Assembly (NCBI GenBank): GCA_029907255.1
Contig: JARYMF010000001.1
Span: forward strand, 62,001-126,000
DNA from: Armatimonadota bacterium
GTDB taxonomy: Bacteria > Armatimonadota > UBA5829 > DTJY01
Direction: 5' to 3'
DNA: 64,000 nucleotides
Shown: positions 35,694 through 38,072 of the stretch, piece by piece
Layout: every line of letters begins with the position of its first letter
Numbering within the stretch: position 1 is the stretch's first letter
Made by a program: the position numbers and the translations under genes
The notes under the pieces: generated by a model
Databases searched by the model: none
What the model saw: the letters and a program-made list of their open reading frames with translations, nothing else
What the model was told of the DNA's origin: nothing

Positions 35694-37178
35694 CTACTTC
35701 TGTGGTCTCAGTTGTGGAAATAGAATCACATCTCGTATCGATGGTGAATCTGTGAATAGCATTGTCAAGCGATCTATTCCGATACCAAGCCCACCCGTTG
35801 GTGGCATTCCGTATTCCATCGCAAGCAGAAAATCCTCATCCATTGGGTGAGCTTCCTCATCGCCTGCCGCCCGCATCTTTGCTTGGTATAGAAATCTCTC
35901 ACGCTGGTCTAGCGGGTCATTTATCTCGGAAAAGGCATTTCCGCATTCTTGAGTTCCTATATACGGTTCAAAGCGCCGTGCAAGCCTTGGATTATCTTGT
36001 CGTTTCTTGGCCAATGGGGATGTTTCTATGGGATAATCGGTTATGAACGTTGGCTGAATAAGGTTGGGTTGCACGAACTTTTCGTGGATCTTTTCGATTA
36101 TTCCACCAAGATTTTCCTCTTTATCTAATTGAAGTCCAAGCCTTTCCCCAGCTCGTTTGGCGGATTCGAAGCTTTCTAGCTCTTCTGGCTCAATTCCCGC
36201 ATATTGGCGGATTCCTTCTAGCAGTGGTAGCCGCCTCCATGGGCGTGCCAAATTGATTGTGTTTCCCTGGTAGGTGAAAGTTAAGCCACCGTACAGCTGC
36301 TCTGATATATAACAGAACATTCGCTCCACAAGATCCATGATATCTTCTAGGTTCGCATAAGCCTGATAAAGTTCCAAAAGGGTAAATTCAGGATTATGGC
36401 GCGTAGAAAGGCCTTCATTGCGAAATACACGTCCCATCTCGTAGACTTTTTCAAAGCCGCCAATGATTACGCGCTTTAAGTAGAGTTCCAGCGATATCCT
36501 AAGAAAGAAGTCGCAGTCTAGGGCATTGTAGTGGGTCTTAAATGGCCTTGCAGCAGCGCCTCCCGCTATGGCTTGGAGAACGGGAGTCTCTACTTCAATA
36601 AACCCTTCGTTGCCCAAGAAATCGCGGATTGCTTTGATGATGATGGTGCGCTTGAGCATTACATCTCTTACATCGGGGTTGATGATAAGGTCAAGATACC
36701 GTTGGCGATATCTTTGTTCTATATCTTGAAGGGAATACCATTGTTCTTCTCCTTTTTGTTTGCCGATAGGGATTGGGCGCAGCGACTTTGCCAAAATTTG
36801 CATTTTGTCGGTAAATACTGTAATTTCGCCCATTCGCGTCTTCCCGACTTTTCCTTTAATGCCGAGAAAGTCGCCTATATCGATGTATTCTATCAAGGAA
36901 TACTGCTCCGGACCTACAGCATCCAACCTAATGTAAATCTGGATTCTTCCCGATTCGTCTTGGATGTGGGCGAATGTTGCTTTCCCCATTATTCGAAGGG
37001 AAACAATTCTGCCCGCGATGGATACTTCCTTTTCCTCAAGCTTTTCGAAGTCTGATATTATTTGCTGCGCAGTATGTGTGCGCTCATATCGCTCTATTGC
37101 AAATGGATCTATACCTTTTTCACGGAGGGATTGGAGTTTTTTTAGTCTGTGTTCTCTAAGTTCTTGGTCCTCAGCCAA
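35694..37178 (-). CDS. lysS: Lysyl-tRNA synthetase, class II
   Basis: 494 residues, the usual class II length. The N-terminal OB-fold (VSIAGRIVSLRIMGKATFAHIQDESGRIQIY) binds the tRNA anticodon. Class II motif 2 (RVFRNEGLSTRHNPEFTLLE) and motif 3 (GGLGIGIDRLTMLFTDSPSIRDVILFP) are intact. I choose the TTG at 37178, preceded by GAGGAG (37186-37191); the longer frame from 37250 adds residues foreign to LysS. It follows greA on the same strand after a terminator-like repeat (37218-37261), so it is read from the greA promoter only by read-through. No lysine riboswitch or T-box leader is seen. Confidence 0.96.
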   Translation of the reverse strand: MAEDQELREHRLKKLQSLREKGIDPFAIERYERTHTAQQIISDFEKLEEKEVSIAGRIVSLRIMGKATFAHIQDESGRIQIYIRLDAVGPEQYSLIEYIDIGDFLGIKGKVGKTRMGEITVFTDKMQILAKSLRPIPIGKQKGEEQWYSLQDIEQRYRQRYLDLIINPDVRDVMLKRTIIIKAIRDFLGNEGFIEVETPVLQAIAGGAAARPFKTHYNALDCDFFLRISLELYLKRVIIGGFEKVYEMGRVFRNEGLSTRHNPEFTLLELYQAYANLEDIMDLVERMFCYISEQLYGGLTFTYQGNTINLARPWRRLPLLEGIRQYAGIEPEELESFESAKRAGERLGLQLDKEENLGGIIEKIHEKFVQPNLIQPTFITDYPIETSPLAKKRQDNPRLARRFEPYIGTQECGNAFSEINDPLDQRERFLYQAKMRAAGDEEAHPMDEDFLLAMEYGMPPTGGLGIGIDRLTMLFTDSPSIRDVILFPQLRPQK

Positions 37179-37299: not shown

Positions 37300-37779
37300 T
37301 TACTTTGTAATCTTAACTATTTCGTATCTTGCCGCGCCGGCCGGTATCTCGACGGTCACAACGTCTCCAACCTTTTTGCCGATAAGTGCTTGGCCAACTG
37401 GTGACTCGTCGGAGATGCGGTCCTCACCCGGGTCTGCTTCTACCGACCCAACAATAGTATACACCCACTCTTCATTGCTGTCTAGGTCGCGCACAGTAAC
37501 CTTGGATCCAATGCCAACTTCGTCGGTGTGAACCTCATCAGCTTCAATAACGTGAGCATTTTGGAGAATTCGCTTTAGCTCGAGAATTCGGCCCTCAACG
37601 AAAGCTTGTTCATTCTTAGCTTCTTCGTATTCGGCGTTTTCAGATAGCTCTCCAAACTGTTTTGATTCTCTTATACGCTCGGCAACAGCTTTCCGATGTA
37701 CAGTTCGAAGATGCTCGAGCTCTTCTTCTATTTTTTTGAGCCCTTCTGGGGTGAGGATTAGTTCTTTTTCTACTGTCAC
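37300..37779 (-). CDS. greA: Transcription elongation factor GreA
   Basis: 159 residues, the family length. The N-terminal coiled coil ([30 protein letters not shown]) with the acidic loop ([22 protein letters not shown]) carries the two acidic residues that trigger RNA cleavage in stalled RNA polymerase. The C-terminal FKBP-like domain ends [17 protein letters not shown]. The GTG at 37779 is preceded by AAAGGAG; a longer open frame would run back through the promoter. A strong promoter (37874-37902) and a 37-base hairpin in the leader precede it. Confidence 0.96.
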
Positions 37780-37809
37780 GAGCTTTCTCCTTTTAACGTT
37801 TAATATAAT

Positions 37810-37846
37810 AAGCACTGATTGCTTCGAATCGAAGAAATCAGTGCTT
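37810..37846 (-). promoter_or_regulatory. Hairpin in the greA leader
   Basis: AAGCACTGATT (37836-37846 read on the minus strand) pairs perfectly with AATCAGTGCTT (37810-37820), with an inner CTTC/GAAG extension. It is followed by ATTATATT rather than a pure T-run. It lies about 22 bases after the predicted transcription start and 30 bases before the greA start. It resembles in position the leader terminator that yields the GraL RNAs at E. coli greA. Confidence 0.6.
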
Positions 37847-37873
37847 AGGGCGCAAACATTTTGTTTTGAAGTA

Positions 37874-37902
37874 ATTGTACCACAATAGCTGCCATCTGTC
37901 AA
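37874..37902 (-). promoter_or_regulatory. Consensus-like promoter for greA-lysS
   Basis: TTGACA (37902-37897), a 17-base spacer and TACAAT (37879-37874), read on the minus strand. Transcription would begin near 37868 and give a leader of about 88 bases. Confidence 0.8.
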
Positions 37903-38072
37903 ACAATTTTTGTATTTCCAAGCTAGGAGGAATTTTATACGCGGAAAGATTTAGAGGAAGAAATAGCATATCTCGCCGAATTTTTAATCGGAATTTCGCC
38001 AAACAGCTACTAATTTTGATTCCGTTTGCTATGATTTGGGTCCAAATACTTTGTTTCTGAAAGGAGGTTCTT

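Follow-up and report, generated by a model that had tools for sequence, protein, structure and literature searches.

In Escherichia coli, greA is preceded by an attenuator hairpin 19 nt into its leader, at which about two thirds of transcripts are reported to end and about a third to pass (PMC6829880). GreA is described as lowering its own expression through this leader by raising termination in vivo, for which the catalytic residue D41 is needed; in that account the effect on leader termination was seen in vivo only and not in vitro (PMC6829880). Published predictions of greA attenuators already cover Proteobacteria, bacilli and Clostridia, and a clear antiterminator is reported for the last two groups (Naville and Gautheret 2010, PMC2965389).

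The leader described here lies in a window of 64,000 nt, the whole stretch of DNA that was analysed, from an Armatimonadota genome and, since greA attenuators have been predicted in print, joins a known kind of element. As in the E. coli greA leader (GraL), a hairpin stands about 20 nt into the leader behind a strong promoter, whereas the E. coli stem differs in sequence and is followed by a real T7 run. lysS lies behind greA here and was not seen beside greA in the E. coli stretch examined. The leaders of Naville and Gautheret are likewise predicted attenuators upstream of greA but are reported there to have an antiterminator, and none was found here; this comparison was one of text and leaves aside the AAGCACTG stem in their Clostridia (PMC2965389). 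Searches of the literature on greA leaders, Armatimonadetes RNA motifs, greA term-seq and greA-lysS attenuators did not find the element (the word 'greA' also matches 'greater'). Nor did those searches find its occurrence in Armatimonadota, a stem common to different phyla, the constant spacing from the promoter or the broken tail.

Materials and methods

Genomes searched for greA numbered 41, that of the window included, and greA was found in all 41. The 30 loci examined were best matches, one per genome, again with the window's own. The hairpin of L009 was found with a slightly relaxed pattern, and the strand was corrected for L018 and L022. For the named-genome set, the 450 nt upstream of greA were scanned in the best 80 greA loci (L032-L111), mostly Bacillota; L105 was added via a relaxed pattern, giving 21 leaders outside Armatimonadota. 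The wider draw comprised 99 genomes of one class beyond Armatimonadota, 93 of them with greA at E <= 1e-25. Two stem alignments were used: A1, with 19 aligned Armatimonadota leaders and a 12-pair stem, and A2, with 36 rows from Armatimonadota and Bacillota leaders, which omits L004, L009 and L020 (3 of the 20 Armatimonadota leaders of A1-type), L008, and L069 and L080 (2 of the 21 Bacillota). Hairpin labels on the GreA tree were taken from the stem patterns.

Results

Features of the greA-lysS locus are provided in Table 1. On the minus strand, the promoter boxes TTGACA and TACAAT occupy 37902-37897 and 37879-37874, with TGn ahead of the latter. Together with the spacer and consensus count in the table, they bear out the earlier note, in which the greA promoter was called near consensus; the greA promoters of relatives are also consensus-like. 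The hairpin had been placed about 22 bases past the transcription start, and the computed offset agrees at about +21, taking +1 as about 7 nt past the -10 box.

Table 1. Features of the greA leader and operon in the window
Feature	Positions	Strand	Basis
greA promoter: TTGACA, 17 nt, TACAAT, extended -10	37874..37902	-	11/12 consensus positions
Short leader ahead of the hairpin, ~20 nt	37848..37867	-	Assumes +1 near 37867
Leader hairpin, stem AAGCACTG..CAGTGCTT lengthened to 12 bp, 5-bp inner stem, 3-nt loop	37809..37847	-	Fold z -9.46; conservation
Interrupted U-tract TTATTATATTAA 3' of the stem, proposed termination zone	37800..37811	-	T-rich tails of the leaders
greA ribosome binding site AAAAGGAG	37787..37794	-	Sequence
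greA, transcription elongation factor GreA, GTG start 37779	37300..37779	-	NCBIfam NF001263 and TIGR01462 above cut-off
lysS, lysine-tRNA ligase	35694..37178	-	TIGR00499 above cut-off; start codon inferred

Besides its two stems, the hairpin has one T/C 1x1 mismatch. It folds at -22.1 kcal/mol, where shuffled sequences average -4.4 and 0 of 200 do as well, so the window hairpin has the stable stem of an intrinsic terminator. The outer stem had been described as perfect over 11 bp; the hairpin is real and its coordinates hold, and the stem proper gains one extra T-A pair. A chance hairpin is ruled out by the shuffle test and by recurrence upstream of greA in relatives and in mostly Bacillota loci, conservation in relatives being the reason not to regard it as a chance fold. 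The sequence behind GCTT in the window, ATTATATTAAACG, is rich in T yet broken, as the description of an imperfect T-run had it. The hairpin is not among the listings of a simple consensus terminator scan of the window. An outer pairing in the window fold, AAUGUUUG/UAAACGUU, was present in two same-genus leaders only of 20 compared and was dropped.

The GreA of the window is 41% identical to E. coli GreA and retains the acidic pair at its tip (GELSEN vs GDLKEN in E. coli). lysS is probably co-transcribed with greA. The reading frame upstream of the greA start stays open to a TTG at 37902; a GreA extended at its N-terminus by translation of the leader was rejected, since the protein has 216 aa only in L002 and L003 and is shorter, at 161-186 aa, in L004-L021.

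The E. coli greA leader corresponds to Rfam RF01769 (Enterobacteria greA leader, 127.5 bits); this family has no match in the window at the gathering score and none up to E 5. With Rfam 15 at gathering score, no family was found in the window's greA leader or in those of 20 Armatimonadota, 20 Bacillota and 10 further loci. For the greA leaders examined, a riboswitch, a T-box or any other leader type known to Rfam was accordingly set aside. A sub-threshold match to RT-2 RNA at 37896-38024 of the window (minus strand; 21.2 bits, gathering 40, E 0.012) is probably due to chance.

Within Armatimonadota, the hairpin was found in 20 of the 30 examined greA loci (L002-L021). Of 28 class genomes, 19 have the stem AAGCACTG..CAGTGCTT ahead of greA, its apex variable and its pairs kept by compensatory changes. 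Model R1 matches at greA in 18 of the 28 (E <= 4e-6), although it was built from 19 of the Armatimonadota leaders and matches to those leaders hold by construction; the long form of the hairpin, 113 nt at L008, is missed by R1 in G004. Each matched class genome has one good R1 site, at greA; beyond it, R1 only picks up that palindrome again on the reverse strand. The hairpin is absent from nine class genomes, namely family f2 (G005, G007, G009, G011), G012, G010, G013, G021 and G025; in the last four the best GreA matches are just 42-44% identical. A search of the phylum with R1 under stricter filters gave matches in 21 of 291 genomes at E <= 0.01: the same 18 class genomes, G037 and G235 at greA, and G031 (E 0.008), whose match is not located at greA. 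Conservation in related genomes, the check proposed earlier, is thus seen at greA in 19 of the 28 class genomes and in two further genomes of the phylum.

Several other features were observed near greA in this phylum. In G235, a GreA paralogue (L139:992-1516, minus strand) has the same leader hairpin upstream, lysS downstream and an altered tip loop, SDEGEDAAYDSAK; judged by this loop, it is perhaps without cleavage activity. L025, from a different Armatimonadota class, has another hairpin with a five-T run about 157 nt upstream of greA, beginning about 15 nt past a TATAAT box, and this is possibly an independent attenuator. In 7 of the 11 loci of family f3 (L011, L012, L013, L014, L015, L017, L021), the greA promoter holds an operator-like inverted repeat GCGTGC..GCACGC, whose arms are 30-46 nt apart with the right arm immediately past the -35 box.

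The pattern AAGC[AG]C[TC]..[AG]G[TC]GCTT occurs upstream of greA in 21 of the best 80 loci, one of which (L032) is from Armatimonadota; outside that phylum it is found at 20 of 79 mostly Bacillota loci among the best 80. The remaining 437 kb of these loci contain one match. Loci missed by the pattern include most Clostridium; carriers of the element include Thermoanaerobacter wiegelii, Caloramator and Caldicoprobacter. In the wider draw, a site for model R2 (E <= 0.02) on the same strand and within 350 nt upstream of greA was found in 8 of 93 genomes, and only a minority of that class therefore has the AAGCACTG form; upstream of greA in G351, R2 matches the reverse strand alone. The earlier note had held that an independent analogue in a distant phylum would be notable. 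The leader is no isolated analogue, as its stem and tail recur in many Bacillota greA leaders. In the greA leaders of Brevibacillus and Aneurinibacillus, the corresponding place is taken by another conserved stem, CTGCCAG..CTGGCAG (L038, L039, L041, L042, L044, L049, L050, L051, L057, L100).

Mapping the hairpin label onto a tree built from 111 GreA proteins takes 14 changes, vs 33.8 in shuffles, and the Armatimonadota copies fall among Bacillota copies. A single origin of the hairpin followed by losses is likely from these sequences, on a tree with several deep forks open and some long branches. The GreA of L097, on a contig titled Calditrichales, sits deep inside Bacillota, pointing to transfer or to a record that is mislabelled or contaminated.

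The stem sequence is near-fixed across the two phyla. In A1, 95.6% of stem pairs are standard, with 6 pairs changed on both sides and 22 such cells, and in none of 500 shuffles is the percentage, the cell count or the covariation score as high; on weaker measures, pairs changed on both sides are at least as many in 36 of 500 shuffles, and pair types in 361 of 500. In A2, 93.4% are standard, with 6 pairs changed on both sides and 37 such cells, and the same weaker measures are reached by 18 and 414 of 500 shuffles. The shuffle figures for both alignments are lenient because shuffles ignore relatedness.

The distance from the -10 box to the hairpin is 20-35 nt in 38 of 41 leaders of both phyla (28-35 nt in 18 of 20 from Armatimonadota, 20-32 nt in 20 of the 21 others); the exceptions are L012, L016 and L091, and the promoter call is weak in L012 and L015. 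The gap between the hairpin and the point where the GreA match begins ranges from 26 to 248 nt. With the promoter distance kept and the greA distance variable, the place of the hairpin is tied to the promoter and not to translation. The 11-nt tail contains 51% and 52% T in Armatimonadota and in the others, respectively, against 23% and 30% expected from same-leader sampling, and 0 of 5000 samples were as high. The longest T run in the tail is 2-3 in 39 of 41 leaders, and a purine stands immediately behind GCTT in 39 of 41. lysS follows greA in 41 of 42 hairpin loci (20/21 Armatimonadota, 21/21 others); in the sole locus without it, L016, 154 bases of contig remain.

Model R2 also matches sites away from greA in Firmicutes genomes, which weakens the idea of a stem unique to greA. 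Of the 21 best such sites, all but G301:C194 were examined. Among these 20, 14 follow the stop of a same-strand ORF at 5-233 nt, 4 lie at the end of an opposite-strand ORF and 2 are unclear; from this placement, the AAGCAC..GTGCTT sites off greA in Bacillota look like mostly 3'-end intrinsic terminators. Their longest T run is 4-8 in 17 of 20 (median 4.5), and T stands directly behind GCTT in 14 of 20. The stem is thus common to both kinds of site, whereas greA leaders have a purine behind GCTT and shorter T runs; R2, with which the other sites were found, favours greA-like tails, and those sites still have the longer T runs.

In the window's own genome, contig C1 (window plus L162-L175) has 10 candidates for a hairpin with a good T run in 344 kb on both strands, vs 3 in a shuffled copy. 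This survey is weakly informative; it suggests that the genome may make little use of classic intrinsic terminators. Since good T runs are rare behind hairpins of this genome, the poor tail may carry less weight as evidence than it does in Bacillota.

Discussion

The most economical account of the greA leader hairpin, and the best reading, is a leaky terminator. The hairpin is probably a weak intrinsic terminator that serves as an attenuator of the greA-lysS transcript, and it lies, as greA attenuators do, between promoter and greA and near the transcript start, as placed from the promoter. We infer termination at the hairpin itself from its sequence and that of its tail. In favour are also the compensatory changes in the stem, the single good site per class genome, the E. 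coli precedent and the use of this stem in Bacillota sites that look like ordinary terminators and have longer T runs. Absence from nine of 28 class genomes, the missing antiterminator and the hairpin's absence from the terminator scan's list count against the reading. Where the earlier note called the leader 'like an attenuator', the likeness holds for the conserved terminator-like hairpin and its fixed promoter distance but not for an antiterminator: no conserved one was found in 20 leaders, in which single-sequence folds gave no common alternative pairing of the 5' arm.

A strong hairpin close to the 5' end of the message, in leaders where no antiterminator was found, would also suit a stabiliser or processing hairpin that guards the greA-lysS message from ribonucleases and terminates nothing; such a role is improbable, as it leaves the conserved T-rich tail and the near-fixed stem sequence unexplained. 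That stem sequence, kept in two phyla at a fixed promoter distance and followed by a broken U-tract, suits a polymerase pause or a put-like antitermination signal acting by contact with RNA polymerase with little termination. The same stem, however, also serves apparent ordinary 3'-end terminators, and its sequence therefore need not be a special contact; we give this account, too, a low probability.

An inverted repeat with little-varying arms near a promoter might instead be a DNA operator bound by a repressor. The arm spacing varies widely, with hairpins from 22 nt to 113 nt (L008), pairs change on both sides, and the tail is on one side only, all of which make an operator very improbable. 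Control of translation by a hairpin near the ribosome binding site is suggested by the gap in the window, where the hairpin ends only 14 nt ahead of that site; the site lies outside the hairpin in the window fold, though, and across leaders it is the distance to the promoter and not to greA that is kept. The related notion of a 3' terminator for the upstream gene meets the difficulty that this gene is divergent in the window, with the greA promoter in between. Either of these roles is highly unlikely.

On the leaky-terminator reading, polymerase would leave the strong promoter, make about 20 nt and then the hairpin, and slow on the broken A/U tract 3' of it. A fraction of complexes would terminate, giving a short RNA of about 60-70 nt, and the remaining complexes would read into greA and lysS. 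By analogy with E. coli, polymerase on the broken U-tract might stall and slip back, making termination sensitive to GreA cleavage; GreA would then cleave the backtracked RNA and hold polymerase in the termination zone. Feedback of GreA on the leader terminator by this route is possible and is put forward tentatively. On the best reading the leader would work like E. coli GraL though unlike it in sequence. A stronger version is unlikely, namely that an ancient element, inherited with greA in Bacillota and Armatimonadota, gauges GreA activity through stalling and backtracking on the U-tract, cleavage-dependent termination and contact between stem and polymerase. If it were true, the amounts of both GreA and lysyl-tRNA synthetase would be set by GreA.

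The tail appears tuned for poor termination, and the place of the hairpin after the promoter is fixed. A second greA leader design, sequence-conserved in two phyla, offers a ready comparison from nature and narrows the choice of positions for mutagenesis to a few. As an attenuator, the leader would link greA dosage to lysS and extend greA attenuation to Armatimonadota, and the cell could set the amount of its RNA-polymerase rescue factor GreA through a leaky stop signal.
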